This document shows, in pieces, positions 24,680-46,409 of a DNA stretch of 64,000 nt. The stretch comes from Wenzhouxiangella sp. XN79A (GTDB lineage Bacteria; Pseudomonadota; Gammaproteobacteria; Xanthomonadales; Wenzhouxiangellaceae): contig NZ_JAAWWS010000166.1 of NCBI RefSeq assembly GCF_012272825.1, positions 11,601-75,600 of the forward strand. The letters are read 5' to 3'. Under the pieces are notes generated by a model. It was not told the DNA's origin. It saw only the letters and a program-made list of their open reading frames with translations, and searched no databases. The translations under genes were made by a program, and so were the position numbers. Each line of letters begins with the position of its first letter. Within the stretch, counting starts at the first letter, position 1.

Positions 24680-26967
<2,288 letters not shown>

Positions 26968-31643: not shown

Positions 31644-32258
31644 TCAGACCGGCAGAGGCTCTCCGACCGACGCGGTCGCGGTGATCCGGAGCACGCCGCA
31701 CGCCGAGACGTCCATGTAGTCGCGAAGTGCGCCGAACGTCGAACGCGCCCCGGCAACGACCGCGTCCGGATCGACGGTGTCATCGGATTCCGCGGCATCG
31801 AGGAAGGCGCGGAAGCCAGGCCAGTGGACGGTTCGCATCGCGTAATAGGCCGTGCACAGCCGGGCGTGGGAACCGAATCGCTCGGTCAGACGCTTGCAGA
31901 TCAACCGCGCACCCAGGGTCGATCCTTCGAGCACGTAGATGGCGCCCAGACGTTCGGAATCGGTTCGCGGCAGCCAGCCATCGTAGGAAGACCGGACCCG
32001 GGGTCGGCGGGTCACGCCGGACAGGTAGGCGAGATCACGATCGACCCGGGGCAAGCGGGGGATGTAGCTGTACTTCGCGCTGTGGAACAAGGCAAGTTCC
32101 GGATCGAAACGGCAGAAGAAACAGGCCCAATGCCCGAGCAGCAGGGCGTATTCATCGAGATCGAAATCCGGGCGAAAGATCGATTTCAGCAACTCGGCTT
32201 CTTCGACGGCGCGGTGGTCGTCGACGGTAGCGTGGCGAAGCGTATCGGCAAGTCCCAT
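31644..32258 (-). CDS. Biliverdin-producing heme oxygenase
   Basis: 204-residue heme oxygenase that opens heme to biliverdin, CO and Fe2+, drawing electrons from a reductase or ferredoxin. His15 in TVDDHRAVE is the likely proximal heme ligand, and the distal-helix signature GAIYVLEGSTLGARLI is well kept, as in bacteriophytochrome-associated enzymes. It is the last gene of the bilin operon, 17 bases after the FAD reductase, with an AGGAG Shine-Dalgarno seven bases before its ATG. The isomer made (IX-alpha or other) cannot be told from sequence. Confidence 0.9.
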   Translation of the reverse strand: MGLADTLRHATVDDHRAVEEAELLKSIFRPDFDLDEYALLLGHWACFFCRFDPELALFHSAKYSYIPRLPRVDRDLAYLSGVTRRPRVRSSYDGWLPRTDSERLGAIYVLEGSTLGARLICKRLTERFGSHARLCTAYYAMRTVHWPGFRAFLDAAESDDTVDPDAVVAGARSTFGALRDYMDVSACGVLRITATASVGEPLPV

Positions 32259-32275
32259 GTTCGTTTCTCCTGGTT

Positions 32276-33463
32276 TCAGGCCGCCGGCTTCAGGACGGTC
32301 CGGACGATCTGGAGTTGGTCGGCTTCGGCAGAGCGGCCGATCAGGCGACTCGAGAGCATTTCTGCCGTTTCGGAGTCCATCCGATAGTTCACCATGCTGA
32401 CCCGCCGCACCAGGTCATCCTCGGTCAGGATGCAGATTCCCTGCTCCTTGGAATCCGACCAGTCCTCGCCGATCGCCTTCATCTCGGCGGCATTGCCGAC
32501 GCCGATCGATTCCAGGCGCATGTCCAGGAATTCCGAATACAGGAAGGAACTCGGCTTGAACTGCACGTCGTCACCGGCCAGGTTGCGGCCGGCGGCGGCT
32601 CCGGACCGGAGCGCATTCTCTTCGTGGCGAAAACTCGAGGCCTGCACTCCGAAGCGCGCGACATCCCCGCAGGCAAACACGTCCTCGAGCCCCTTGATCC
32701 GGAGCCGAGCGTCCACCGCCAGGCCGTGCCTGGAGACTTCCGGATCGTGCGAAACGAAGTCGACGCTCGGCTGCTGGCCGATGACCGGAATGACCACATC
32801 GGCATCGAGCTGCTTGCCGTCGCTGAGCTGGACCCGCCCGCCCGGCTCGAGCCGGATCGCACGGCGACCGGTAATGCACTCGATTCCGGCAGCCTGCAGC
32901 CGCGCCCGGATCCGTACAGCCAGCGGTTCCGACAGATAGCCGGTCAGCGGCGCCTCGGAGGAGATCACGAGTTTGACGCGGATTCCGTTGGCACTCAGGG
33001 AGCTGGCCAGCTCCACGCCGAGCAGACCGCCACCGATGACCACGGCCGATCCTCCCGCCGCCAGTTTCTGTCGGACGCGACGGAAATCGGCGAGCGAATT
33101 GAAGTACACCGCTTCGGCGCAATCGCCCGGAAGCCGGCGGGGCTGTAGACCGGTGGCGATCAGCAACTGCTCGTAGCGCACTTTCTCTCCGGATGAAAGG
33201 GTCAGCAGATGCCGATCGAAGTCGGCTTCCGTGACCCGCGTCGCCGGGTGATACTCAACGCCGAACCGGGCCGGGTTGTAGAAACAATCGGAAACGGCCA
33301 TGCCTTTCCACAGCTGCTTGCTCAAAGGCGGCTTGCGGACCGGCATGTCCGACTGATCGGACAGCATCATGATCGTGGACACCGTGTCCCGGGAGCGGAA
33401 CGACTTGACGGCGGCCATTGCCGCCATCCCGCCACCGATTACAACGAGGTCATGAAATATCAT
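32276..33463 (-). CDS. FAD/NAD(P)H-dependent reductase (AIF/ferredoxin-reductase type)
   Basis: 395-residue pyridine nucleotide-disulfide oxidoreductase-type flavoprotein with FAD motif VVIGGGMAAMAA at the N-terminus, NAD(P)H motif VVIGGGLLGVELASSL (about 140-160), and VFACGDVARFG near 275. It has no redox CxxC. Its family includes putidaredoxin/rubredoxin reductases that feed [2Fe-2S] proteins, so it probably reduces the operon's ferredoxin for the heme oxygenase and bilin reductase. The ATG at 33463 is used; it overlaps the end of the phosphatase gene by 14 bases. Confidence 0.82.
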   Translation of the reverse strand: MIFHDLVVIGGGMAAMAAVKSFRSRDTVSTIMMLSDQSDMPVRKPPLSKQLWKGMAVSDCFYNPARFGVEYHPATRVTEADFDRHLLTLSSGEKVRYEQLLIATGLQPRRLPGDCAEAVYFNSLADFRRVRQKLAAGGSAVVIGGGLLGVELASSLSANGIRVKLVISSEAPLTGYLSEPLAVRIRARLQAAGIECITGRRAIRLEPGGRVQLSDGKQLDADVVIPVIGQQPSVDFVSHDPEVSRHGLAVDARLRIKGLEDVFACGDVARFGVQASSFRHEENALRSGAAAGRNLAGDDVQFKPSSFLYSEFLDMRLESIGVGNAAEMKAIGEDWSDSKEQGICILTEDDLVRRVSMVNYRMDSETAEMLSSRLIGRSAEADQLQIVRTVLKPAA

Positions 33464-33971
33464 TATCGAAGCCCCTGTCTTGATTCCACGTCGATTCGAT
33501 CCACAACAACGCCGCCAGTGCCAACCTGGTGAGCCGGAGCTCGTCGTTCGTCCGGGCCACGGCCGCCCAGGCACTCAGGGGATCGAGCCTCCGAGCGACC
33601 ATCAGCCCGGCGGCGGCGACAAGCGGGGATCGGCTGAGACCGAGATGACAGAACACCACGACGCGCTCGCCCTGCTCGAGTGAACGGACCAACGCCCGCA
33701 CCGCTCGCAGAAGATTGGCGCGAAGCACCGGCGTGGAGTGCTCGAGAAAATCCCGGGCGCCGAGCTGCTCTCGACCGTCCCACGGGTCCGATGCGGAGAA
33801 AGGATCGGCCAGCCGGAAGACCATGCCTTCGATTTCGATCGGAGTCTCGTCGCGATCGAGAAGATCGGACGCACCGACACCGCACAGACTGATCCAGCGA
33901 TTGAAGCCCTCGCGCTGCCAACCTCGAAACGCTTCGCTATCCGGCAGAGGTGACACGGTCACCGCGTTCAC
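33450..33971 (-). CDS. Cys-based dual-specificity-type phosphatase
   Basis: 173 residues with GTG start at 33971, favoured by GAGGG eight bases upstream and an 11-base gap from the previous gene. The signature CHLGLSRSP gives catalytic Cys108-x5-Arg114 on a P-loop, as in DSP/PTP enzymes; the residue before Cys is Phe rather than the usual His. Asp56 or Asp62 (LADPFSASDPW) could be the general acid. In an operon with a Ser/Thr kinase it is likely to reverse that phosphorylation. Weak similarity means the substrate class is uncertain. Confidence 0.75.
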   Translation of the reverse strand: MNAVTVSPLPDSEAFRGWQREGFNRWISLCGVGASDLLDRDETPIEIEGMVFRLADPFSASDPWDGREQLGARDFLEHSTPVLRANLLRAVRALVRSLEQGERVVVFCHLGLSRSPLVAAAGLMVARRLDPLSAWAAVARTNDELRLTRLALAALLWIESTWNQDRGFDNDIS

Positions 33972-33982
33972 CGCGCCGGCCC

Positions 33983-34594
33983 TCACGCGGCGTGGCTCCG
34001 CGGCGACCGGACGTAGCCCTCGAATTCGTCGAGCACGTCGAGACAGTCCGCGTCGAGCCGGCCGCCGTGATCGGCACCGGACGGATCGAAAAAGAAGAGC
34101 CCCGCCCAACTCGTTGCATCCAGCATCTGCATCTGCGCGAGCAACTGAGCCTTGGACGGCAGCGCGAACGGGACCGGGTCACTATCGGCAAGCAGGATGG
34201 AGAATCGGTCGACCATCTGGAGCGCGTAGGCGAACCGACTGATCTCGGCCAGGTGCAACAGCACGACGATGCGTTGATACGGCACATCGATAGACCGGAG
34301 AAGCGACAGTGCACCGGCGCTCGACTCCGGCGGAACCGCCGGACGGGAACCGAGCACGACCGGATTGCGCATGCCATCGAAGACTTCCCCGAGGCGATGG
34401 ATGCGCTGCGCACGCCCGAGCAGGCCGGCCACGCCGAAGCGCGCGATTCCCTGCTGATCGAAGACCGGGGCAAGCACCGAGCTTGCGCTGAGCTCGATGA
34501 CCAGCGAACTGCCGTCGTCGACCACACCGAGGGCATCGAGATGACGGACGGCAAGCGGATTCGTGTACAGAATGCATTCGATCGAATTTCTCAT
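33983..34594 (-). CDS. Unknown bilin-operon protein, 203 aa
   Basis: I recognise no family. The 203-residue protein is mixed alpha/beta, with no signal peptide or membrane helix. The N-terminal half has strand-helix alternation (SIECILYTNPLAVRHLDALG, SLVIELSASSVLAPVF), the middle a segment rich in Arg/Leu helix (RIVVLLHLAEISRFAYALQM), and the end an acidic helix. Its ATG overlaps the kinase stop (ATGA), so it is translated with the kinase and may be its partner or regulator. Confidence 0.55.
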   Translation of the reverse strand: MRNSIECILYTNPLAVRHLDALGVVDDGSSLVIELSASSVLAPVFDQQGIARFGVAGLLGRAQRIHRLGEVFDGMRNPVVLGSRPAVPPESSAGALSLLRSIDVPYQRIVVLLHLAEISRFAYALQMVDRFSILLADSDPVPFALPSKAQLLAQMQMLDATSWAGLFFFDPSGADHGGRLDADCLDVLDEFEGYVRSPRSHAA

Positions 34595-36231
34595 GGACGG
34601 ACCTCACCTTCTTGCGGTTGATCGGGCTCGCCGGTACTGGGCTCGATCGAACGCCTCTGACGTGGACGGAGCCGGAGCGGAGACAGCCATTGCCGTCGGA
34701 CCCGCCCGGTTTCGGAAAAGGAATAGAGTCGGACCTGGCCGGATTGAAGCCAGGCAATGCAGCCGTTTCGCGTCAGCGATACGTTTCGAGTGCCGGGATC
34801 CAGCGCGATCCGCTGGCGACAGATGCCGTTCTCGATCGTCTGCGCTTCGAACGACACCGGCCGCTGCACGCTGCGCAGCAGCAAGCGAAGCGAGCCGTCC
34901 TGCGAAACTCGCAATCCCTCGGCCATGCCGTCGAGGTCACGCGACCAGCGCACGACGAGATTCCGGTCTCGGCAGACCAGTCGATCCTGCAGGTTGCCCT
35001 CGATCACATAACAGCGGTCCGTCGTCAGCGCGATCAGGTCGCTGTTGACGAACCCTTCGAGTCGCGTCCGCGCGATATCGGCGCTGCCGCGCGAGGCGCA
35101 GAACAGCCAGTTGTTGCTCAGCCAGGCCTCGCCGTCCTCTGCAACGGCAATCGCGTCGGGCACGTGCCGCAGCCAGCGGACATGGCTCAGCCGGTCGAAC
35201 TCGACGCACCACTGCCACAGGTCGGAGCCCTGAACGAAGTACAGTTCGTCGCCATGCCAGATCGGCGATACGCTCGAGCACGATACGGAGCCGATGGTGC
35301 GGCCCGTGGCCTCACGGACCACGAGATTGCATCCGGCGTGGAACGCCACAAAGCGGCCGTCGTCGCTGGACAGGACGGTGTCGAAAGGGCCACGATGCGA
35401 GCGCGCATGCCGCTTCACCAGGCCTGCCGGAACGACCGTCGCTGATCGCGGCAATACGGACCGATCGTCGCTTGCGCCCTTCATCAGCAACGCCAGCGCT
35501 TCACTGGCGTGCTCGGGCCGATTCCGTTCGTCGTTCTGGAGCAGACGGGACAGCAGGTTGCGCAGCGCCAGGCAGGGCACGCCGGACAATTCGGGAATCG
35601 TGTAGCGCGCCTCGCGATAGATCGCAGAGGGCATGCCACGGTTCGGCACGCTGCCGCGCAGCGCTTCCAGCAGGACAATCCCCAGCGAAAACAGATCGGA
35701 ACGAAGCGACGGGTGGCCGTCGACCGATTCCGGAGCCTCGTACGCCGGAGATGCCGAACGCCATTTCTGCTGCTCGACTTCCTGGAAATACGCGCTGCTG
35801 CCGAAGTCGGCGAGAAAGAACCTCAGTGAGCTGCCGTCTCTACGAACGAGGATATTCTCGGGCTTCAAGTCGCTATGGAGCATCCGCTGCGCATGCAGGC
35901 AACGCAACGCAACCATCAGATCGTGCGCCAGCCGCTTGACCAGGTCCGGAGACCAGATCGATCGCCGTCGAAGCCACTTTCGCAGGCTGCCGGAGGAGAA
36001 CCACGGGTAGATGAGCGCACAACGCGTGTTATCGATGAACACGGTATCGAGCGGCGCGACGATCTGGTCGCGGACCGGAAGAGCGAACACGTTGAGTTCC
36101 CGACGGTAGCGGTTGCCATCGACCAGCTTGATGAAGACCTTGTTGCGATCGTTGTTGTCGAAGGCGACGTACACGTTGTCGTTCGGGCCGCCCCGGATCG
36201 GACGGATTCCGGAGTACGCGCCACCGAGCAT
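34591..36231 (-). CDS. Ser/Thr protein kinase with propeller-like C-terminal domain
   Basis: 546 residues (ATG at 36231; an in-frame GTG at 36255 would overlap the V4R gene by 20 bases). The kinase has the catalytic Lys35 (VFIKLVD), HSDLKPEN with Asp121 and Asn126, ADFGSS with Asp142, and SPAYEAPE. The glycine loop (RPIRGGPNDNV) is loose. The last 230 residues are strand-rich repeats (VREATGRTIGSVSC, LVCRDRNLVVRWSRDL) that look like a quinoprotein/WD40 propeller and may read out a partner. No membrane helix: a cytosolic kinase, unlike the one at 24676. I recall that the cyanobacterial V4R/ferredoxin cluster also carries a Ser/Thr kinase (SpkG). Confidence 0.85.
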   Translation of the reverse strand: MLGGAYSGIRPIRGGPNDNVYVAFDNNDRNKVFIKLVDGNRYRRELNVFALPVRDQIVAPLDTVFIDNTRCALIYPWFSSGSLRKWLRRRSIWSPDLVKRLAHDLMVALRCLHAQRMLHSDLKPENILVRRDGSSLRFFLADFGSSAYFQEVEQQKWRSASPAYEAPESVDGHPSLRSDLFSLGIVLLEALRGSVPNRGMPSAIYREARYTIPELSGVPCLALRNLLSRLLQNDERNRPEHASEALALLMKGASDDRSVLPRSATVVPAGLVKRHARSHRGPFDTVLSSDDGRFVAFHAGCNLVVREATGRTIGSVSCSSVSPIWHGDELYFVQGSDLWQWCVEFDRLSHVRWLRHVPDAIAVAEDGEAWLSNNWLFCASRGSADIARTRLEGFVNSDLIALTTDRCYVIEGNLQDRLVCRDRNLVVRWSRDLDGMAEGLRVSQDGSLRLLLRSVQRPVSFEAQTIENGICRQRIALDPGTRNVSLTRNGCIAWLQSGQVRLYSFSETGRVRRQWLSPLRLRPRQRRSIEPSTGEPDQPQEGEVRP

Positions 36232-36235
36232 GGTT

Positions 36236-36910
36236 TCAACGACAGAGGAATTCACAGATCTCGTCCGGTGGCGTCCGGTCGTCGACCATCGAGCGAATCT
36301 GGTCGATGCGTGCCGGTGCGGTGATGAGGAATTCGGTCTGCGGGGCACCCAGTAGCGGTGAGGCGATCTCGGCGTAGTCCAGGTCGCGACGGCTCATGGC
36401 CTCGAACATTCCGACCAGCATGCCGCCGACCATGTGATCCACGGGCTCGGCGAGGTCGCTGAGCGCGCGCGCAAAGATGCTGTTCTTGAAGGTCACGCGG
36501 ATCAGGCCTGCCGAGCGAGCCATCGATAAATCGAAATCGGCCCGTCCCCACCCATGAAGCTGATAGTACGACTCCAGCACGGAGAAGAACGACTGCACCG
36601 AAAGACGGTCGAGGCCTTGCGGCGCGATCTCGTTGACCTGCCGGTTCAGCGTCTTGGCGGTGCGCCGACCCCAGGTGAGCCCGGCGGTCTTCAGAATCAG
36701 CGACCAGGCCTCGCCGGTTTCATGCAGCAGCGCTTCATAGATGCCCCGTATGACATCCTCGGACAAATAGATGACGCGATATTCGGCATAGCCGCGAACC
36801 GTCCCTTCGTCGAGCGTGTAACAGAGCTGATCTTCACCGAAGATCCGCTGGAGGACCATTTCCGTAGCTTCGGTCTGAGTCGTTTCCTGAATGGGTGCAG
36901 GGCTGGACAT
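36236..36910 (-). CDS. V4R-like protein (divergent)
   Basis: 224-residue protein of the same general build as the V4R protein at 38319: N-terminal helices, then PVDHMVGGMLVGMFEAMSR as the V4R helix, a strand, and PQTEFLITAP for the terminal strand. The Cys residues that mark the usual V4R end pattern are missing (the segment reads IASPLLGAPQTEFL). V4R domains bind small molecules, including in BchJ-like and regulator proteins. It follows the globin after three bases. The call rests on arrangement and gene context more than strong identity. Confidence 0.6.
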   Translation of the reverse strand: MSSPAPIQETTQTEATEMVLQRIFGEDQLCYTLDEGTVRGYAEYRVIYLSEDVIRGIYEALLHETGEAWSLILKTAGLTWGRRTAKTLNRQVNEIAPQGLDRLSVQSFFSVLESYYQLHGWGRADFDLSMARSAGLIRVTFKNSIFARALSDLAEPVDHMVGGMLVGMFEAMSRRDLDYAEIASPLLGAPQTEFLITAPARIDQIRSMVDDRTPPDEICEFLCR

Positions 36911-36913
36911 GGA

Positions 36914-37504
36914 TCAATCCCCGGTAAGAATTTCGCGAACGATTTCGACATGCGGCTTGAGCAGAAGGTAGTGCGGCTCGTCGAGCGATTGCTGGTAGTT
37001 ACGATCCATGAGGAGATAGGTCTCGTAGAGCGACTGCAACCCGTCCGGCAGGCCGTTGATGCGTTCGGCATCTTCATTGCTGCCGAACAGAACGCTCTCC
37101 TTCGGTTTGACCCGCCCCGGAAAATTGAAGGCCTGGAGAATGGTCTTGAGCCAGAACAGCAGCTTGTCCTTGTACCATTGATTGTCGTTCATCAACATGG
37201 CCTGAATGGCGTAGGTGCTTACGTTGGTCGCATCACGAACGCACTTCTCCGGTGCCAGTTTGTGCTTCTCGGCGTACGGGTAGACCTCGAAGATCCGGTT
37301 GATCGCATCGCTGACTACGTCGGCTTCCACCGCATAGGCGGCTTTTGCGGCATCCGCCCGCTCCGCCCAGTCCGGAAGAAGGCGTCGATAGATCGATAGT
37401 TCGTCTTCCGTCAGATGGCGGGCTTCGGCATCCTTGAATATCCGACGGAGTTCGTCGGGAAGTTCGGGTCGGGCAGTGTCGACCACTGCTGCATTGGCAC
37501 TCAT
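36914..37504 (-). CDS. Phycobiliprotein-like globin (BBAG-type, bilin-biosynthesis-associated)
   Basis: 196-residue all-helical protein. The segment EKCVRDATNVSTYAIQAML, with Cys88, Arg90 and Asp91, matches the phycobiliprotein C-x-R-D helix that holds bilin Cys84, followed by Trp110-Tyr111 and LLFWLKTIL like the next phycobiliprotein helix. LTEDELSIYRRLLPDW and AINRIFEVYPYAEKH correspond to the earlier helices. I infer a bilin-binding globin that is a relative of, not a true, phycobiliprotein. Its start overlaps the preceding stop (ATGA). Covalent binding would need the Cys and a lyase or self-attachment. Confidence 0.75.
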   Translation of the reverse strand: MSANAAVVDTARPELPDELRRIFKDAEARHLTEDELSIYRRLLPDWAERADAAKAAYAVEADVVSDAINRIFEVYPYAEKHKLAPEKCVRDATNVSTYAIQAMLMNDNQWYKDKLLFWLKTILQAFNFPGRVKPKESVLFGSNEDAERINGLPDGLQSLYETYLLMDRNYQQSLDEPHYLLLKPHVEIVREILTGD

Positions 37505-38316
37505 TCCTTGCCTCCTTCACTACGGCGGTTTTCGTTCTCGGAGCTTCGGTCCACGGCATCGTCGGTTGCTGCAGGCACCCGCTCCCGTTCACGCAGCTCG
37601 ACCACTCGCCGGACGTGGTCCGGAACCTCGCCGCCATCCGGGTCGACCGAGAAGCGCTCGCCCGGAGCGCCGTCGGCCGGATCCGCCGGATCGGATTCCG
37701 CCGTCGGGTCGTCGGCATGGGCGTCCGTGTCACCATCCCAGTTCAGGTTCTCGAAGAAATCCTGCGCGTCATCCTGCGCGTCGGATTTCCGTTCGTTCAT
37801 CGATCGCTCGACCGCCGATCGTTCGCTCATGCTTGGCTCCTCCTGCTTCGTTCCCGCGCCGTCCCAGGGCATGTCGCTAAGGAACTCCGCCGCGCCCTTC
37901 TCCACTTCATGACGCGATGCCTCACCGCCGACGTTCGCGCTTTCGGCATCCGTCGGCGAGCGGGGTGCCTCGCCTGGTTCCCAGGGCATTTCGGCAAACA
38001 GCTCCTCTGCCGTCTGATCGAATAGCGCGTCGGCCTCAGGATCGTCGGCCCGGCGTGGCTCCGGCGCCGCAGCTGTCGCTTTCGATGCAGGCCCGGCGAT
38101 CGCCACATCCGCATTCGTCGCCTCGGCTTTGTCCTCGATGCCGATGGCGTCAACGCCACCGGCCCCTACTTCCGAGCCGTCGACCGACGACGAGTGGACC
38201 GTGATGGGCTCGTAGAGCTCCAGTTCGTCGACCTCCTTCAACCCACGCACCTTCAGCGCCTTTCGCACCGTGGCCAGCGTGCCTCTCAACAGTCGAGCGT
38301 TCATGTCTTGGTTCAT
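37501..38316 (-). CDS. Acidic disordered protein with three Trp short motifs
   Basis: 271 residues, low-complexity and acidic apart from a short N-terminal basic helix (RLLRGTLATVRKALKVRG). Three copies of one motif lie in the disordered part: EELFAEMPWE (Trp112), EFLSDMPWD (Trp151) and DFFENLNWD (Trp193), i.e. acidic-(L/F)-(F/L)-x-x-(M/L)-(P/N)-W-acidic. No enzyme domain is seen. Such spaced motifs usually dock one partner several times, so this may be a scaffold or linker for V4R or globin proteins. It sits between them, two bases after the V4R gene and overlapping the globin start. Confidence 0.7.
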   Translation of the reverse strand: MNQDMNARLLRGTLATVRKALKVRGLKEVDELELYEPITVHSSSVDGSEVGAGGVDAIGIEDKAEATNADVAIAGPASKATAAAPEPRRADDPEADALFDQTAEELFAEMPWEPGEAPRSPTDAESANVGGEASRHEVEKGAAEFLSDMPWDGAGTKQEEPSMSERSAVERSMNERKSDAQDDAQDFFENLNWDGDTDAHADDPTAESDPADPADGAPGERFSVDPDGGEVPDHVRRVVELRERERVPAATDDAVDRSSENENRRSEGGKE

Positions 38317-38318
38317 GC

Positions 38319-38981
38319 CTAGTCCTCGATCTTTTCGAGAATTTCCTTGGCCGAAGCCCCTTCACTGCGCCAGAACTCCGCGGCGTTGACCTTCTTTTCC
38401 TCGCCGACGAGGAACTTGCAGACGTCGCTGCCCATGGAATAGCACTGCACCTCGATGCTCTGCAGGTCGGTGCGATGAAAGAAGCTGAAGGCCCCGGCGA
38501 ACAATCCGGCGTACATGTGGCACACCGGCTTACCGACGATCTGCATCGACTGGGCCACCGCCGAATTCCTGATCTCGATGACGGTGAAGTCCCGCTTCTT
38601 GAACTCCAGATCGAGCCGCCAGGCCCCAAAGCCCATGATGGTGAGCGGCCACCACCAGCATTCCCAGACGAACTTGGGATTCATCTGCCAGATTTCGCGC
38701 TTTCCGCCGCCGAATTCCTGACGCATCCGAGCAGCGAAGCGCTTCATGTCTTCCAGACCCCAAGCGATTCCGCACCGATACATCAGCAAACCGCTGGAGG
38801 CGCCTACTTCTTCCTCGATCCCGAGGTGCAGTCCGACCATGAATGCTTCGGTCACTTTCGCCGCGCGCTGACCGTCCCGAAGGAAGATCTCGCCGGTCTT
38901 CGGATTGGATCGGAAGAACTCATCGGGCACGTAGTAGTTGTGGTAGCCCGCGTATCCGCCGATCGCCGTATCGATTGACAT
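38319..38981 (-). CDS. V4R domain protein
   Basis: 220 residues. The last 70 form a V4R (4-vinyl reductase) domain: PVCHMYAGLFAGAFSFF, then EVQCYSMGSDVCKFLVG, with Cys154, Cys180 and Cys188, close to the family's C-x-G-x-x-C-x-F end. The first 150 residues hold an alpha/beta region with Trp-rich YWW-like WECWWWPLTI. The ATG at 38981 follows GGAG in the ferredoxin's stop region; the two genes are 7 bases apart. Family members bind tetrapyrrole intermediates or hydrocarbons; a bilin or precursor is the sensible guess here. Confidence 0.78.
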   Translation of the reverse strand: MSIDTAIGGYAGYHNYYVPDEFFRSNPKTGEIFLRDGQRAAKVTEAFMVGLHLGIEEEVGASSGLLMYRCGIAWGLEDMKRFAARMRQEFGGGKREIWQMNPKFVWECWWWPLTIMGFGAWRLDLEFKKRDFTVIEIRNSAVAQSMQIVGKPVCHMYAGLFAGAFSFFHRTDLQSIEVQCYSMGSDVCKFLVGEEKKVNAAEFWRSEGASAKEILEKIED

Positions 38982-38988
38982 GGTCAGG

Positions 38989-39453
38989 TCACTCCTGTTC
39001 GACAAGGACACTGAAATCCATGTCCTTGAGTTTCATGATTTGCGTTCGAATGATGATCTTGTTGGCTTCCACCAGGACCTGCCCGGTCCGGGGGTGGAGA
39101 ATCGGCACGCTGGTCCGTTTGCCGACCTGGGTCTCGAGGTCCTGAAACGACTCGACGTACAACCCGTCGGGCAGTTCGAGGTCTACCCCACCACCCTGCA
39201 CCTTGCACTGACAGGCAAGTCGACTGTTTTCCTGTGCGCCCGTCAGGATCGACAGAGTCATTTCTTCGCGATTCGTCGGCGCCGACAGACCTTCGCTGCC
39301 CGAGCGGACATAGACATGACAAGTGGCACACAGCCCTCGGCCCCCGCAGAGTTTCTTGACCTGGACATTGGCCCCGATCAGGACATCGAGGAGGGACTGA
39401 TCTTCGTTGGCCGGGACCTTTCGGCCCTGGATCGTTACCTCAGGCATGCTCAT
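38989..39453 (-). CDS. [2Fe-2S] ferredoxin with C-terminal extension
   Basis: 154 residues. The plant/adrenodoxin-type cluster ligands are Cys36, Cys42, Cys45 and Cys81 (KLCGGRGLCATCHVYV and RLACQC). An extra ~50 residues after the ferredoxin fold (VPILHPRTGQVLVEANKII) are unusual and may dock a partner. It starts at the ATG at 39453 inside the end of the giant gene; another ATG at 39447 is equally possible. It would pass electrons from the FAD reductase to the bilin reductase and heme oxygenase. Confidence 0.85.
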   Translation of the reverse strand: MSMPEVTIQGRKVPANEDQSLLDVLIGANVQVKKLCGGRGLCATCHVYVRSGSEGLSAPTNREEMTLSILTGAQENSRLACQCKVQGGGVDLELPDGLYVESFQDLETQVGKRTSVPILHPRTGQVLVEANKIIIRTQIMKLKDMDFSVLVEQE

Positions 39454-42400
39454 GGCCTCCCGTCGGCGGGCTCAGCAGTGCGAGCGCGACCGGCTCACAG
39501 AACGCATGGACGTTTTTGGGAAGGTGGCTGCGCAGCATCTTCCGGAGTCGGCGGACTTCGGCCGGGTCCTCGATACGAGGAATCCGGCACGTTCCGCCTG
39601 CACCGTCGCGAGTGCCGGCAGTCGGAACGGTCGAGATCCTTCCCATCAGGGCCAGCATCGCGAGGACATGGACCAGCGTCAGCGAATCCAGCGGGGAGGT
39701 GGCCGTCGATGTCCGGTTCAGTCTGGTGCTCCAGCCGCCGGCTTCCTGCATCGCTTCGATCCATCGCGCGCCATGGCTCGACAGCCTGGCGGCCAGCCAT
39801 GCCTGGGCCACTGCACTGGACCGCTTTTCGGCAGCCTCTCGCTCCGTCGATGACTGCCTGTAGATCGAGGCATCGATTGTCTCGGCAAAGCGCTGAACGT
39901 CGTCGAAACTCCAGTCGGCCAGGGGTCGTGCACAGAGTTGTACGAGCGCAGATCGCTGACCGAAGTCATCCCCGCGCGCTACCGCGAACGCGTAATCCCG
40001 CGCCGATGCGCGCACCGCTTCGATGCTGTGCTCGGCAATCTTCGGCACCGAGCGCTTCAACAGACCGCCGCGAAGAGCGTTCGGATCTGCGCTGGACGCG
40101 GAATGCAATGCGGCCCGGAGCAGATTCATCTGTGATTTCACGGTCGTCTCGTCGGGCAGCGGCCAGTCGTTGAGCTGCGATACGTCGATGAAGGATTGGT
40201 GCGCCATGCCGAACGTGCGACGGGACGCAACGACGAAATGTTGCCAGAGACGCTGCTCGCCACGGACGGCTCGACCCCGACACCAACCGCGGACGTCGGA
40301 CTCGACGGAATCGAGCGCATTAAGCTGCTGCCGTGCGACCAGCGCCTTGCCGATCTCCGTCTGACAGGCGATCAACTCCGGCAGGAGGCGCTCGTCCAAT
40401 GCCTCGCGGAGCCGCTTGATCAAAGCAGCGGACGACGATTTCCAGGTCTCCGGTGGCAAGCCGGCCACCGTCGGGGTGGCGTCGACCAGCGTTTGGCAGA
40501 GTTCGGCACGCCCGCCCCGCCAATCGCCGAGGCTCGCCGCCACGACCATTCCACCCAGGAACGAACGCCACTCGGCCTCACTGGCCTTGTCTTCGGTGAA
40601 CAGGTGCTCCTCGGCTTGCAGGATTCGTTCGGCGAAAACCCGGCAGTTGGAGAGATGCGATGCCGCCTGGCCGAGGTGCGAAGTCCAACCGACAACCGCC
40701 GCCTGGCATTCGTCGGGAACCCTTGCCGAAGTTTCCTTCGCCAGGGCCGCGGCGAACCGGACCGGAAAGTCGGGATCGCCGCCTTCGATCGGCAGGACGC
40801 TGGCCAGCCAGTAGCGCGGCAATTCCAGCGCGATCAGCGGTTCCGTCTCGCTCGCCAGGAGATCTCCCATATGCCGCACCGAGTCGACCAGGGCGTTCGG
40901 CAGCGCGGCCGGAAGGCTGCCGGCAATTCCGGCCGCGTCCGCCGCTGCGCTCAGTGCTCTGCGGCCGAGCAAGCCGGCATCGTCGCTCCAGCATCGTCCG
41001 ATCGTGATGCGGCGAGCGATCGCGCGCAGTTCGCCGAGCAGCTGAATCCACAGCGCTGCCGCAGGCGCCTCCAACTCGGCCGCCAGTTTCCCTTCGAGTT
41101 GCTGCAGCTCTTCGGCCACGATGGAGAAGCCGCGCGCGCCGATCGCCGAGCCGACGATGGGCAGGATGTCCTGCACGGCGATCTTGAAATCACCGTGCCG
41201 ATCCAGGGCGGCCATCCAGGCCGATTGCCAATCGGGCGCCTCGGCGTCGTTGAATCGCGCGAGAAGATGCTGCACGGCATGCTGGAAGGGTTCCGAGGCA
41301 CCGCTGGAGTCGCCGATCGGCGGCGTCGCCAGGGCGCGGTCGGGCACGGCGCTCCTGCTGGCCGACGCGGCCCGCGTGCCGAGGCCCAGCAGGCTGTGGA
41401 AGAACTGGGCGATTCCTCTCTGCTGCTCGGCCGAGAGATTGGCCTGAAGCGCATCGGTCAGGGACTTCCAGCAATCGGCTTGTGCAGGAAAATCATGCCG
41501 GAGCAACCAGTGGACCTCGGGGACGATCCAGATCTGCCACTCCTCGTCCACGCGTGGCGTCTTGTTGCCCGGCAATCGGGCCAGCAAGGTGATGATCCGT
41601 CGAAACCGCTGACGCGCCCGCTCATCGGTCCCGGCAAGTTCTGCGGCCAGTTCGTTCTGCATCGTCCAGAGGCGCAGGACGGTCGACTCGTTCATGCCGC
41701 GGTCGATCATCGCCGCGACGTCTTCGCGGTCGAGATTCAAGGAAGACGCGACCCGTTCGACAATTCCCGATTCGAAGAACTCGACGACGGTTTCGGGCCG
41801 GGTCCGGCCCGCCACGACATCGTCGCTGGCGAATTCCACCAGGCCCGGGCCGCTGACCTCGCGTTCGGCGCCAAGCGCCCGGTCGATGTACTCGGCTGCC
41901 AGGGGAGCCCAGTCCATGGACACCGCCGCCCAGACCTCCCGAAAGTCCGCTGCACCGGCGCTGCGCGCGACCTCGAACTGGGACAGCGCGCGCAGCACAC
42001 CGTGCAGACGAGCTCCGGCCGTGGACGACAGCGGTTGATCGATCCGGCTCAATTGAGCCGCGATTCTCTGGGTGCTGCGCCAGATCGGCCGCTCGCTTTC
42101 GCTGCCGGCCAGGAGCGCCGCGTAACGCCGGAAGTTCTGCTCGGCGTCGGCCGATTGATCGGCCGCCGTAACCGAGCGGGCGATCACGTTCATCAGCTGT
42201 TGCAGCGTGCGGGTGGCATCTTCGGTCGGTAGGCGTTCACTGACTTCAGCCGCGATGGTGCTGGCAAAGCCGGCCGATTCGCGGTCTGCAGCGCCTCTCC
42301 ATGCGGCCAGCTCGCGCACGTCCTCGAGCAGCAGACAGAGGCGCTCTGCGACATCGTGCAGCCAGTCGAGCTCGTAGCGTTCGTGACCCGGTCGGATCTT

Positions 42401-43432
42401 GTTCAGCAAGGTGTCGAAGAATTCGCGCAGCTCGTCGATATCGAGATCGACGGTCTGCGTCAACCGCTCGGGGTCGACGGCATGAATGAACGCGGCTCGA
42501 TGGGTTCGCGAATCGCCGATCAGCGTCAGAACCAGAATCCAGTCGACGAGATCGTCGTCGAGCATACGGAGTGCACGAGCGTGCACCGTTCGAAGGTTGC
42601 GGACGAACGCCAAGCGATGACCGCTCCGCGCCAGGCCGCGGAACAGGGCGAAGGTACGCTCGTCGAGACTGCCTCCGACCCGTTCTTCGATCGCGAAGGT
42701 AAGCTGGCGGCTCAGCATGCGCCATTCTTCCGCAGTAAGCTGCGCGGCCTGGTCGACCGAATGGACCAGACGGCGGAAGAACTCGAAATCGAGCGCGTGG
42801 TGCCGAAGCGGGCGCAGCCGCGCCCAGCCGTTCAACCAGGCGTTCAGCTCCTCGCCGATCGCATCGGCATCCTCTCGTTCGCTCAGACCGGCTTCCGAGA
42901 GCGCTTGCGCAACGATCGCTTCGGGCTCACGCAGCTTTCTGCGGGCGGTCAGACGGTCGACCGCTCCGCGCACGTCCCGGAGAGCAGCGTGCAGAAGCAT
43001 CGATTGCTGACGTGTGAGCACCGCACCCAGGCGGCCCTGGACCATGTTCAGCGCAAGCACTGCCGGACCGGGCGGCAGTGCTTCGAGCAGGCGCTCCGCG
43101 GCGGGCATCAGGTCGAGTCCACCGGGTCGGCGCCCCGAGACGCGTGCCTCGATTTCGTCCAGGCACTCCCGGAGCATCTCCGTGGCCTTGCGGAGATCGA
43201 CGTCACCGATCTTCGCCTGCAGCGCTTCGTTGCGACTGAACTCGATGACGAGCTTGCCGCGTTCTTCGGCCAGCACAGCGCTGAGTCCTGCGCCTTCACG
43301 GTCGAGAAGATAGGTCTCGCAGCAGGACAGGGCGTGGGGTTCGAACAGACGGGCCGCTTTCTTGTCGTGCGCGGCGGCCGATGACTTCGTCGCCGCGGCG
43401 GCAGCATTCTGAAGGGTGGCGTCGAGGTTCAT
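39440..43432 (-). CDS. Giant helical bilin-operon protein of unknown fold
   Basis: 1330 residues and the largest gene of the operon. It is predicted by eye to be helical nearly throughout, with no signal peptide, membrane helix or catalytic motif I recognise. A disordered Ser/Ala/Pro linker near residues 690-715 and another near 1270 split it into parts. No CxRD globin motif or V4R pattern was found in it. It starts at 43432, overlapping the bilin reductase stop (ATGA), and ends overlapping the ferredoxin start, so its amount is linked to both. A scaffold for the assembly is the simplest idea, but this is inference. Confidence 0.65.
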   Translation of the reverse strand: MNLDATLQNAAAAATKSSAAAHDKKAARLFEPHALSCCETYLLDREGAGLSAVLAEERGKLVIEFSRNEALQAKIGDVDLRKATEMLRECLDEIEARVSGRRPGGLDLMPAAERLLEALPPGPAVLALNMVQGRLGAVLTRQQSMLLHAALRDVRGAVDRLTARRKLREPEAIVAQALSEAGLSEREDADAIGEELNAWLNGWARLRPLRHHALDFEFFRRLVHSVDQAAQLTAEEWRMLSRQLTFAIEERVGGSLDERTFALFRGLARSGHRLAFVRNLRTVHARALRMLDDDLVDWILVLTLIGDSRTHRAAFIHAVDPERLTQTVDLDIDELREFFDTLLNKIRPGHERYELDWLHDVAERLCLLLEDVRELAAWRGAADRESAGFASTIAAEVSERLPTEDATRTLQQLMNVIARSVTAADQSADAEQNFRRYAALLAGSESERPIWRSTQRIAAQLSRIDQPLSSTAGARLHGVLRALSQFEVARSAGAADFREVWAAVSMDWAPLAAEYIDRALGAEREVSGPGLVEFASDDVVAGRTRPETVVEFFESGIVERVASSLNLDREDVAAMIDRGMNESTVLRLWTMQNELAAELAGTDERARQRFRRIITLLARLPGNKTPRVDEEWQIWIVPEVHWLLRHDFPAQADCWKSLTDALQANLSAEQQRGIAQFFHSLLGLGTRAASASRSAVPDRALATPPIGDSSGASEPFQHAVQHLLARFNDAEAPDWQSAWMAALDRHGDFKIAVQDILPIVGSAIGARGFSIVAEELQQLEGKLAAELEAPAAALWIQLLGELRAIARRITIGRCWSDDAGLLGRRALSAAADAAGIAGSLPAALPNALVDSVRHMGDLLASETEPLIALELPRYWLASVLPIEGGDPDFPVRFAAALAKETSARVPDECQAAVVGWTSHLGQAASHLSNCRVFAERILQAEEHLFTEDKASEAEWRSFLGGMVVAASLGDWRGGRAELCQTLVDATPTVAGLPPETWKSSSAALIKRLREALDERLLPELIACQTEIGKALVARQQLNALDSVESDVRGWCRGRAVRGEQRLWQHFVVASRRTFGMAHQSFIDVSQLNDWPLPDETTVKSQMNLLRAALHSASSADPNALRGGLLKRSVPKIAEHSIEAVRASARDYAFAVARGDDFGQRSALVQLCARPLADWSFDDVQRFAETIDASIYRQSSTEREAAEKRSSAVAQAWLAARLSSHGARWIEAMQEAGGWSTRLNRTSTATSPLDSLTLVHVLAMLALMGRISTVPTAGTRDGAGGTCRIPRIEDPAEVRRLRKMLRSHLPKNVHAFCEPVALALLSPPTGGHEHA

Positions 43433-44202
43433 AGCGCCATGCTCCGTGCTGCGACCACGGACCCATCGGCCGGGACGCTGCGCCCGTCGACGCGAGCGGG
43501 CCCGAAGTGCCAATCCTTCAGGAGTTCATCGGCGGCCTTCTGACCCATCTTGACGCCGAGCAATCGGTGGCCGGGCGAATTCTCGTAGTGGTGGAATTTG
43601 TACCGTTCGACATCTTCGTGGTCGGACCCCGAACGTCCAGCGGACAGGCTCGGATTCCAGAACGATCGGATCGTTGTGGCGAGATAGTCGTTGAAGGCCT
43701 GGCGCAGCTCCGACAGACGGGATACCTCGCAGCTTCCGTACAGCACCCATGGCATGGCGATCTCTTCGAACCACGCGGGGCGTTCACGGTTTTCCGGGAA
43801 GCGTGCCCGCCAGTATTCGCCGAGTGCGCCGAATTCACGGTCGAGACGATCGACCAGCGCCGGTTGCCGGCCGCAGACTTCGACATCGAGAATCAGCGCA
43901 TGCACCCGGTCACCGAACACGACCCATTCGGCGGCGAATACCGGAAAGACCTCGGGGCTCGCCGTGGGGTAGACCATGACCGTGGCGATGTCCATGGCCG
44001 CGCCGCGGATTCGAGCATACCGACCGCACAGCCGGTCGCCGGCGATCCGCCACCCCTCGCTTTCGATCTCGAAATGCTTCGAGCCGATCGCCAGCTGCTG
44101 GTGACGGAATCGAGCCGGACGCGTTTCGTCTTCCAGATCGAACTCGGACATCTGTCCGAGGAAATCGGACCGCGTCCAGGCGACGTAATCGGAGTGCTGC
44201 AT
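43429..44202 (-). CDS. Ferredoxin-dependent bilin reductase (pre-PcyA-like)
   Basis: 257-residue FDBR. VMVYPTASPEVFPVFAAEW, then VHALILDVEV (Asp106), WFEEIAMPWVLY, and the late HRLLGVKMGQKAADELL with HFGP follow the order of PcyA: by my alignment Asp106 equals catalytic Asp105 of PcyA, whereas the PcyA His88 position (…LHCVMFP) reads ATVMVYP, with no His. It would reduce biliverdin by two-electron steps from ferredoxin; the product cannot be told. The ATG at 44202 is supported by AAGGGGG eight bases upstream. It is the first gene of the operon. Confidence 0.78.
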   Translation of the reverse strand: MQHSDYVAWTRSDFLGQMSEFDLEDETRPARFRHQQLAIGSKHFEIESEGWRIAGDRLCGRYARIRGAAMDIATVMVYPTASPEVFPVFAAEWVVFGDRVHALILDVEVCGRQPALVDRLDREFGALGEYWRARFPENRERPAWFEEIAMPWVLYGSCEVSRLSELRQAFNDYLATTIRSFWNPSLSAGRSGSDHEDVERYKFHHYENSPGHRLLGVKMGQKAADELLKDWHFGPARVDGRSVPADGSVVAARSMAL

Positions 44203-44756
44203 TCGACGAACCCCCTTGGTTGCTGTGAAGGCAGAAGAGTCTTTGGATGTGAATGATTTCTCCAGAAATCGTGATGTTGAAGTGAACGACACACCGGAGC
44301 CTGTTCTTCGAACTGCAACCTCGCTGCAATGTTCGTATCGATCGCGCTTGACGGCAGCGTGACGCTGATCACCTTTTCTGGATGTCAGCCGCCAACTCCC
44401 GCCCAAGCACCGTCCAGAACCGAGACATCTCGACCGACCCTGCGATATGCTCGAGACTATGGGTACGCTACAGTTGAAACGATGAATAGCGTGAACCCGA
44501 AACGACCGCTTCACTGCTCAACCGGGGTCCATCAACGGCTCAGCTCGTCTTCACGACGTCTCGATGGCTCCGCTGTCGCTTCGTGAATGAAGCAACCGGA
44601 TACATTCGGGTCGCTACGATCGCCGGTTTTCGATCGGACTGAACGCGGTGTGCCGGCGCCCGTATCGTTGAACTCGCGCACTCGGTCCAGGCCCGCGCAA
44701 CCACGATGGAAAAACATCATCGGGACCGACAACGGGCGCATGCAGGAGCACATCCA
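44203..44756. promoter_or_regulatory. Divergent intergenic region of the bilin operon
   Basis: The 554 bases separate the bilin operon (leftward) and the TPR-GGDEF gene (rightward). The leftward half has distinctly lower GC than the genome average here and holds the perfect palindrome at 44255-44270. I see no convincing paired -35/-10 for either direction, and short frames in this stretch have no recognisable domain. The operon promoter should lie between 44203 and about 44350. Confidence 0.5.
44255..44270. promoter_or_regulatory. 16-bp perfect palindrome, candidate operator
   Basis: GATTTCT-CC-AGAAATC is a perfect inverted repeat with a 2-base centre. It lies about 53 bases upstream of the bilin reductase start, where a repressor or activator of the whole operon would be expected to bind. 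No regulator gene is in the operon, so the partner protein is not known. Confidence 0.4.
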
Positions 44757-46409
44757 ATGACGCATCAGACCGTACCGACCTCGTCCCGGGTTCTTTCGAT
44801 CATCGGCGCAGCGCTGCTGGCTGCAATGGTGGCGGCCGAGGCCGCTCCCGGGTCGGATCCCCTTTCGACACTCCGGGACGCGATCGAACGGCACGAACGC
44901 GACGGCGACTACCGATCGATGATCCTGGCGGCGGTGGAACTCCGGGACACCGCAAGGGCACCGGAGGATCGCATCCATGCCCAGCGTTCGCTGGGCCGCG
45001 GTTATGCGCTGCTCGGCGACCAGGACCGAGCGGTCGAAGCGCTGAGCGAAGCGATGGGACAGGTCCGTCCCGGCATGTCGCCGACGCTGCTGGCCGAGCT
45101 CTATCGTGACACCGCCGGAATGCTCGGCGAACTCGGGCGTTACGAACAGGCCTTGTCGCTGGTCGAGCGGGGGCTCGGCGCGCTGCGTGAAGAAAACGAG
45201 CCCGACCTGGAAGCTGCGCTGCTGGTGATGCGCGGCTCGATCCTGGGGGCGCTGGGCCGTCTCGACGAAGCGATGGCCAGCATCGAGCAGGCCATGGACC
45301 GACCGCTGTCGACGCCCCGCCAGGAGATCATGCGGCGCAACAATCTGGGCATGATCCACAAGTGGCGCGGCGAGCTGGAGCCGGCGCTATCGGCGTTCGA
45401 AGCGGTGTACCGGCAAGCCTTGGAGGCCGGCAGCGAACAGCTGATCGTCTATGGCCTGCTGGAGCTCGGCGACGTCGAGCGGCTGCTGGGCAATCGCAGC
45501 GATGCGCGAATGCACCTCGAGGACGCGCTCGGGCGCGCCGAAGCCGCCGGCGAGGAGCGCTGGCAGTTGTTCGCCCACAACTACCTCGCAGAGCTCGAAG
45601 CCGAGCAGGGCAACGCCGAGGCCGAGGCCCGTCACCGCGACGCGGTGGCCGCCATCCGGTCTGCACTGCAGGGCCAGGCCGTCGAGAACCGGGCGCGGGT
45701 GCTGGAAGTCAGTCTCGAAGTGCTCGAGCGCGAACGCGAGATCGAGCAACTGCGGATGGAACGCGCGCTGCAGGAAGTCCAGCTGGAACGAGGTCGAACG
45801 CTGATCCTGCTGGCCGCGATCGCCGGAGTGCTGCTGCTGTTTGCCCTATGGCTGGCCGTGCAGCAGAGCCGGGTGCGCGCATCGGCCAACCGCGAGCTGG
45901 ATCAGCTGGCCAACACCGACACCCTGACCGGCCTGCGCAATCGACGGTACTTCATCGACCACCTGCGTCGACGCATGACCGACGAAACGGTTCGCGGTGC
46001 ACTGATCCTGATCGATGTCGATCGGTTCAAGCGGGTCAACGACGACCACGGCCACGAGGTCGGCGACGTCGTACTGAGAGACGTCGCGCAGCGGATCCAG
46101 GCCATGATGCGCAGCGAGGACACCGTCGCCCGCTGGGGCGGTGAGGAGTTCCTGGCCTTCCTGCCGAAGTGCACGGCAGACGCGGCGCTGCAGGTCGCGG
46201 AGCGGATTCGCGAAGCCATCGATTCCACGCCGGTGATCCACGACGACGCGACGCTGTCGGTCACCGCGACGCTGGGCGTGGCCGAGATCGGCGATGACGG
46301 GGACTTCGAGCGCGCACTTCGAGATGCCGACCATGCGCTCTACCGGGGCAAACAGAGCGGCCGGAACTGCGTGCGGATCGCAACGCCGGACCGGTCAGCG
46401 ATGTCCTGA
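44757..46409 (+). CDS. TPR-GGDEF diguanylate cyclase
   Basis: 550 residues starting at the ATG at 44757, nine bases after GGAG. An N-terminal signal-like segment precedes a TPR region (to about 300), a coiled-coil stretch (LEVLEREREIEQLRME), a membrane helix (LILLAAIAGVLLLFALWLA, about 360-380), and a GGDEF domain with LTGLRNRRYF, LIDVDRFKRVND and WGGEEF. The I-site RSED is five residues before the GGEEF, so feedback inhibition is likely kept. It makes c-di-GMP. It is divergent from the bilin operon, which raises the question of a shared signal. Confidence 0.88.
   Translation: MTHQTVPTSSRVLSIIGAALLAAMVAAEAAPGSDPLSTLRDAIERHERDGDYRSMILAAVELRDTARAPEDRIHAQRSLGRGYALLGDQDRAVEALSEAMGQVRPGMSPTLLAELYRDTAGMLGELGRYEQALSLVERGLGALREENEPDLEAALLVMRGSILGALGRLDEAMASIEQAMDRPLSTPRQEIMRRNNLGMIHKWRGELEPALSAFEAVYRQALEAGSEQLIVYGLLELGDVERLLGNRSDARMHLEDALGRAEAAGEERWQLFAHNYLAELEAEQGNAEAEARHRDAVAAIRSALQGQAVENRARVLEVSLEVLEREREIEQLRMERALQEVQLERGRTLILLAAIAGVLLLFALWLAVQQSRVRASANRELDQLANTDTLTGLRNRRYFIDHLRRRMTDETVRGALILIDVDRFKRVNDDHGHEVGDVVLRDVAQRIQAMMRSEDTVARWGGEEFLAFLPKCTADAALQVAERIREAIDSTPVIHDDATLSVTATLGVAEIGDDGDFERALRDADHALYRGKQSGRNCVRIATPDRSAMS

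Follow-up and report, generated by a model that had tools for sequence, protein, structure and literature searches.

A putative bilin module with kinase and phosphatase genes in Wenzhouxiangella and its cyanobacterial relatives

A 64,000-nucleotide stretch of contig NZ_JAAWWS010000166.1 from Wenzhouxiangella sp. XN79A (positions 11,601 to 75,600 of the forward strand; the window, in whose numbering positions are given) carries twelve minus-strand genes, which probably form a bilin module of the pre-1/BBAG kind that is self-contained and has a regulation of its own. Clusters of this kind are already known, as the core of the operon corresponds to the pre-1/BBAG cluster published by Rockwell, Martin and Lagarias (2023, PMC10151467). 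Part of what is new concerns two further genes: our comparison suggests that the kinase and a protein with three Trp motifs belong to the old core of the module, and that cyanobacteria inherited the known core genes alongside them. A preliminary description of this DNA had claimed twelve leftward genes with gaps of 17 bases or less, and all twelve frames were recovered, running from 44202 to 31644 (open frames). In gene order from the heme oxygenase to the ferredoxin-dependent bilin reductase (FDBR), the intergenic distances are 17, -14, -4, -4, -20, 3, -4, 2, 7, -14 and -4 bases, with overlaps at seven of the eleven junctions.

Bilin enzymes, ferredoxin and globin

The first gene of the operon (43429-44202, -, likely start ATG 44202) encodes a 257-aa FDBR of the pre-PcyA type, which matched Pfam Fe_bilin_red at 9.7e-13 and scored 48.7 bits against PF05996, for which the curated cut-off is 31 bits. 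A four-member profile of the protein found PcyA in the PDB as its best match at about 3e-17. In a tree calculated without the published pre-1, pre-2 and pre-3 sequences, the FDBR formed its own clade on a very long branch, apart from cyanobacterial PcyA and other FDBRs. In the profile alignment, which is remote, Arg, Thr and Glu take the places of PcyA residues E76, H88 and D105; pre-1 pre-PcyAs lack all three PcyA residues and pre-3 keeps D105 (PMC10151467). Since pre-PcyAs are reported to give phytochromobilin, with phycoerythrobilin as a further product of pre-3 (PMC10151467), phytochromobilin would be the expected product here, with low confidence.

The last gene encodes a heme oxygenase (31644-32258, -; Heme_oxygenase 3.5e-10), which is the single heme oxygenase match in the host genome. 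Next to it lies a gene for an FAD-dependent reductase of the ferredoxin-NAD+ reductase kind (32276-33463, -, likely start ATG 33463; Pyr_redox_2 7.8e-44); its nearest NCBIfam models are dioxygenase ferredoxin reductases, with scores below their cut-offs. The [2Fe-2S] ferredoxin (38989-39453, -; Fer2 1.2e-11) is by position the counterpart of Fd5/Slr0148. It is about 37-56% identical to its relatives, and its four cluster cysteines were invariant in 44 sequences.

The 196-aa globin (36914-37504, -) belongs to the phycobiliprotein family and tests as BBAG type by its match to PF00502 (Phycobilisome, 4.4e-9) and by a CVRD motif at 37232-37243 (-). This motif follows the CXRD pattern of phycobiliprotein attachment sites (PMC10151467), and its C88 is the likely covalent bilin site. 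Matches in the PDB were phycocyanin beta chains (best E 0.0011). In a Pfam search covering the operon, the globin gene was the only member of the phycobiliprotein family and no linker was found. Bilin binding by BBAGs and FDBR activity of pre-PcyAs have been reported (PMC10151467). The operon holds the pre-1 gene set of heme oxygenase, Fe-S protein, two V4R proteins and a BBAG globin with CXRD, and like the pre-1 clusters it has an FDBR without the three PcyA catalytic residues. Beyond the main text of that paper, it contains a ferredoxin reductase, an SpkG-like kinase, a phosphatase, and the three-motif, 203-aa and 1330-aa proteins. The heme oxygenase, FAD reductase, kinase, globin, ferredoxin, FDBR and one V4R protein named in the preliminary description all scored above their Pfam cut-offs.

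Conserved order, V4R pair, three-motif protein and kinase

Relatives of the operon were sought by scanning one genome per species for the V4R protein V4Rb with two short peptide patterns, an approach that missed the more divergent pre-1 and pre-3 clusters. The scan returned three close proteobacterial clusters, from Lysobacterales (L009), Comamonadaceae (L010) and Rubrivivax (L011), together with 47 cyanobacterial-type loci, one of them titled Gracilibacteria. The three proteobacterial clusters have in common the order large protein, ferredoxin, V4Rb, variable protein, globin, V4Ra, kinase, 203-aa protein and FDBR. As the gene order recurs in three other genomes, the arrangement is, on this comparison, not due to chance. 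The cluster had been claimed as pre-PcyA/BBAG type, and this assignment held: profiles confirmed the core families, including the FDBR and phycobilisome families, and the neighbourhood is conserved in other genomes. The phosphatase is also found in L009 and L010, and the FAD reductase in L009. All four genomes have a heme oxygenase gene within the cluster or close to it, and in three of them no other heme oxygenase was found; the gene adjoins the cluster divergently in L010 and L011, and in L009 it is part of a heme oxygenase-regulator-phytochrome group downstream.

Identity of the proteobacterial counterparts to the window proteins falls from V4Rb (70-74%) through ferredoxin (49-56%), globin (38-40%), V4Ra (33-39%) and FDBR (21-24%) to the large protein (19-21%), so that on these alignments it is V4Rb and ferredoxin, and not the reductase, that are most constrained. 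CXRD is present in three of the four proteobacterial cluster globins.

The operon was absent from the 397 other sampled genomes of the host's order, except one from another family, and from all five sampled congeners. A single-protein FDBR search of the order gave one extra match (G295), a TonB-like protein that we rejected as a chance match. The G+C content of the operon is 0.637 against about 0.70 on either side; this low value and the patchy occurrence in the order fit horizontal acquisition, with loss elsewhere possible. Among 371 genomes of the family of L011, no clusters were found beyond L010 and L011, and viral contigs gave no V4Rb relatives. A plasmid search matched Acaryochloris only: the Acaryochloris marina plasmids pREC3 and pREC2 (L007 and L008), typed as conjugative, carry V4R-V4R-ferredoxin-allophycocyanin-like clusters. 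Such conjugative plasmids are a possible transfer route for the clusters.

V4Rb (38319-38981, -, likely start ATG 38981; Pfam V4R 4.5e-16), the counterpart of the cyanobacterial Slr0144-type V4R, is the most conserved protein of the operon, with 40-46% identity to its cyanobacterial counterparts. The first 18 structure matches of its model (pLDDT 66.6) were all sensory domains of DmpR, PoxR or MopR. Its residues C154, E177, C180 and C188 (38418-38522, -) resemble the DmpR zinc ligands C151, E172, C177 and C185 (PMC7264223), with similar but not identical spacing, and this Cys-Glu-Cys-Cys set is present in 4/4 proteobacterial and 47/47 Slr0144-type V4Rb proteins. V4Rb thus resembles the aromatic-sensing domain of DmpR, PoxR and MopR in both fold and residue set. 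Unlike these regulators, it is a stand-alone, sensor-like domain of 220 aa without the fused AAA+ and DNA-binding domains that mark the DmpR type. We infer a ligand-sensing role for V4Rb. The second V4R-related protein, V4Ra (36236-36910, -), lacks the zinc-type residue set. Two V4R proteins had been claimed: V4Rb was recognized by Pfam, and V4Ra only through a four-member profile, which finds cyanobacterial V4R proteins at up to 8.5e-36.

Downstream of V4Rb lies the gene for the low-complexity Trp-motif protein (37501-38316, -), which motif comparison identifies as the counterpart of the Slr0145-position protein. Its three Trp residues all fall inside the motif [FL][FL]xx[ML][PN]W, as LFAEMPW (37981-38001), FLSDMPW (37864-37884) and FFENLNW (37738-37758), all on the minus strand. 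None of 200,000 shuffles contained three such motifs, and none of the 77 Trp residues of the other operon proteins fits the pattern. Since this strict motif was defined with the window protein in view, counting a looser motif across loci is the more independent test: three or more looser motifs occur in the frame that follows V4Rb at 38 of 48 loci, against 0.36 expected per frame. The window protein and the cyanobacterial slr0145-position protein share three FFxxx(N/P)W motifs. The variable protein has three motifs in L010 and L011, and one in L009, near the end of a 721-aa coiled-coil-like protein. Its repeated motifs suggest that the protein may act as a multivalent scaffold. At four cyanobacterial loci (L019, L034, L038 and L044), V4Rb is followed directly by a globin-like frame, without a three-motif protein.

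The 554-aa Ser/Thr kinase (34591-36255, -, likely start GTG 36255; Pkinase 6.1e-27) has its own C-terminal half, and the catalytic Lys, HxD and DFG are all present. Against a profile built from the four proteobacterial kinases, the kinases of the cyanobacterial clusters reached 156-182 bits, and no other kinase in the sampled genomes exceeded 115 bits. In an unrooted tree, the four proteobacterial and sixteen cyanobacterial cluster kinases were split from 32 others, a sample of such kinases, with support 100/98; the window sequence sits on a long branch. The kinase is the spkG counterpart by position, the tree set being one that lacks the Synechocystis sequence. Because it groups with kinases beside cyanobacterial slr0144-0149-like clusters, the cluster kinase looks ancestral. 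In Synechocystis the operon kinase gene is spkG, and an spkG mutant loses phosphorylation of Fd5, while the activity of SpkG itself is unverified (PMC11863333). The interactions of Slr0144-Slr0149 were validated by affinity purification in Synechocystis (PMC9880817).

The slr0144-slr0152 cluster and the window operon are alike in the V4R pair, the Fd5-like ferredoxin, the globin, a three-motif protein at the slr0145 position and a kinase at or near the spkG position. They differ in that the cyanobacterial cluster, unlike the window, lacks a heme oxygenase and an FDBR, and in that most cyanobacterial loci have two globins where the window has one. Counterparts of the 1330-aa, 203-aa and phosphatase genes were not found in the cyanobacterial clusters. 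The preliminary description had seen the kinase, phosphatase, scaffold-like and electron-supply genes as extensions of a known cluster; the genes are there, but neither the kinase nor the Trp-motif protein is a recent addition, as both have cyanobacterial cluster counterparts.

The Cys-dependent phosphatase (33450-33986, -, likely start GTG 33986) is of the dual-specificity type with the motif CHLGLSR; its DSPc match (4.1e-7) lies just under the cut-off, so that this part of the earlier gene list holds weakly, and L009 and L010 have Cys-x5-Arg at the same position. The 203-aa protein (33983-34594, -) is kept in all four proteobacterial clusters at 23-30% identity. Its model (pLDDT 72.5; best Foldseek match 4.9e-5, TM about 0.56) shows a weak similarity to the ParA/MinD/BchL fold, and no Walker A motif was seen in it. 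A protein of about 1300 aa stands at the same place in all four proteobacterial clusters, here as the 1330-aa protein (39440-43432, -, likely start ATG 43432). No significant Pfam match was obtained for V4Ra or for the 203-aa, Trp-motif and 1330-aa proteins.

Proposed mechanism and alternatives

Gene content, family identities, conserved order, kinase grouping, motifs and residue sets are direct observations, on which we base a scheme; its enzyme activities, the bilin produced, the assembly of a complex in this organism, the ligand, the target of phosphorylation and the output are predicted. The heme oxygenase would open heme to biliverdin, and the FDBR would reduce biliverdin with electrons passed from the FAD reductase through the ferredoxin. 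The resulting bilin may be bound by the globin at Cys88, and the globin, the ferredoxin and the two V4R proteins may assemble on the three-motif protein. V4Rb, as a stand-alone DmpR-like ligand domain, would sense or hold a tetrapyrrole, with V4Ra as its degenerate partner, and the kinase and Cys phosphatase could control the complex through phosphorylation, with the ferredoxin as the most likely target and its conserved Thr66 and Thr71 as candidate sites.

Several points weigh against this scheme. The window FDBR is very divergent (branch 8.7; 21-24% identity), and its activity might be altered. In L009, whose cluster is otherwise kept, the globin (L009:12835-13434) has APRD in place of CXRD and, lacking the Cys, is probably unable to attach bilin covalently at that site. 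L011 is without a phosphatase between the 203-aa gene and the FDBR, and the V4Rb model is of modest confidence (TM about 0.5).

The host had been described as apparently non-photosynthetic, which proved to be wrong. Contig 28 of its genome (3.75 Mb, 99.97% complete, 0.21% contamination; window on contig 49) carries pufL, pufM, pufC, puhA, bchG, bchP, crtD and crtY, each above its NCBIfam cut-off, in a bacteriochlorophyll photosynthesis gene cluster (G000:C28:8288-9952 and neighbours; L064). Contig 28 is similar in composition to the contig of the window, and reaction-centre genes are present in two congeners as well; with the low estimated contamination, these observations led us to judge contamination an unlikely source. 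The same genes, composition and congeners indicate that the host is likely an anoxygenic phototroph. Chloracidobacterium has already been named as a phototrophic pre-1/BBAG carrier (PMC10151467); Methylovulum psychrotolerans and Myxococcota are further sources of published pre-1 and pre-3 clusters.

A module serving the photosynthetic apparatus, through assembly or repair of the bacteriochlorophyll reaction centre and with a V4R pair that handles (bacterio)chlorophyll precursors instead of bilin, is one alternative, which we regard as unlikely. It would agree with the reaction-centre genes in the genomes of the host and L011, and with reports that tie slr0144-slr0152 to photosystem II assembly (PMC9145668, PMC13326532). 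However, the genomes of L009 and L010 yielded no reaction-centre gene, and since these are two of the four cluster genomes, phototrophy is not required for the cluster. Of the 398 genomes sampled from the order, 11, spread over several families, have reaction-centre genes, and only the host among these 11 has the operon; a strict tie to phototrophy was thus rejected as unsupported in this sample. The heme oxygenase and FDBR in or beside the cluster also point to bilins.

A light or redox photoreceptor, in which a bilin-globin sensor has its state relayed by the kinase/phosphatase pair to signalling such as cyclic-di-GMP, appears quite improbable. Kinase, phosphatase and ligand domain do stand within one operon, and signalling genes lie close by: a divergent GGDEF gene at 44706-46409 (+) in the window, a GGDEF-EAL-PAS gene upstream in L009 and an HDOD-GAF-histidine kinase gene directly after the FDBR in L011. 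Such neighbours vary between genomes, however, and the BBAGs tested are reported to be photoinactive (PMC10151467). That the operon mainly makes a bacteriophytochrome chromophore would suit L009, where genes for a PAS-GAF-PHY histidine kinase, a LuxR-type response regulator and a heme oxygenase lie convergently just downstream (L134:6210-10849, -), but a search for PHY-domain phytochromes came up empty in the host genome and in that of L010, which refutes this idea for the host barring an unrecognized bilin photoreceptor and makes it extremely improbable.

The bilin module with its own regulation bears on two older questions, since BBAG clusters are described as having no known function and the ties of slr0144-slr0152 to photosystem II are unexplained. 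We tentatively propose, as a conceivable reading that we do not favour, that the "photosystem II operon" slr0144-slr0152 is the remnant of a bilin-sensing, phosphorylation-controlled module, whose kinase, three-motif scaffold, zinc-V4R sensor, ferredoxin and bilin globin arrived as one unit from such bacteria. The module would originally have served, and perhaps still serves, to signal the status of bilins or tetrapyrroles and not to build photosystem II. Should the kinase and the three-motif protein prove ancestral, phosphorylation of cyanobacterial Fd5 would be part of an old bilin system, which is directly testable; the proteobacterial version, with its own heme oxygenase, reductase, ferredoxin reductase, kinase and phosphatase, could be moved whole into E. 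coli.

Operon flanks and minor observations

No Rfam match was found in the operon and its flanks. In the region 44150-44800, no sigma-70 promoter was found, and the one terminator-like site is within chance expectation. Signalling genes flank three of the four clusters, each a different one (L133:3744-5579 and L135:11233-13545, besides the GGDEF gene of the window). A second Ser/Thr kinase domain (PF00069, 4e-45) occurs in a long open frame outside the operon, at about 24916-25665 (+) of the window. In three genomes of one genus of the same order (G028, G133 and G187), frames of about 160 aa with a V4R domain only gave weak V4Rb-profile matches; they are possibly BchJ-like, though these genomes are not among the reaction-centre matches. 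In a Thermosynechococcus genome, a bilin reductase gene (L036:19472-20377, -) lies about 9 kb from the V4R cluster.

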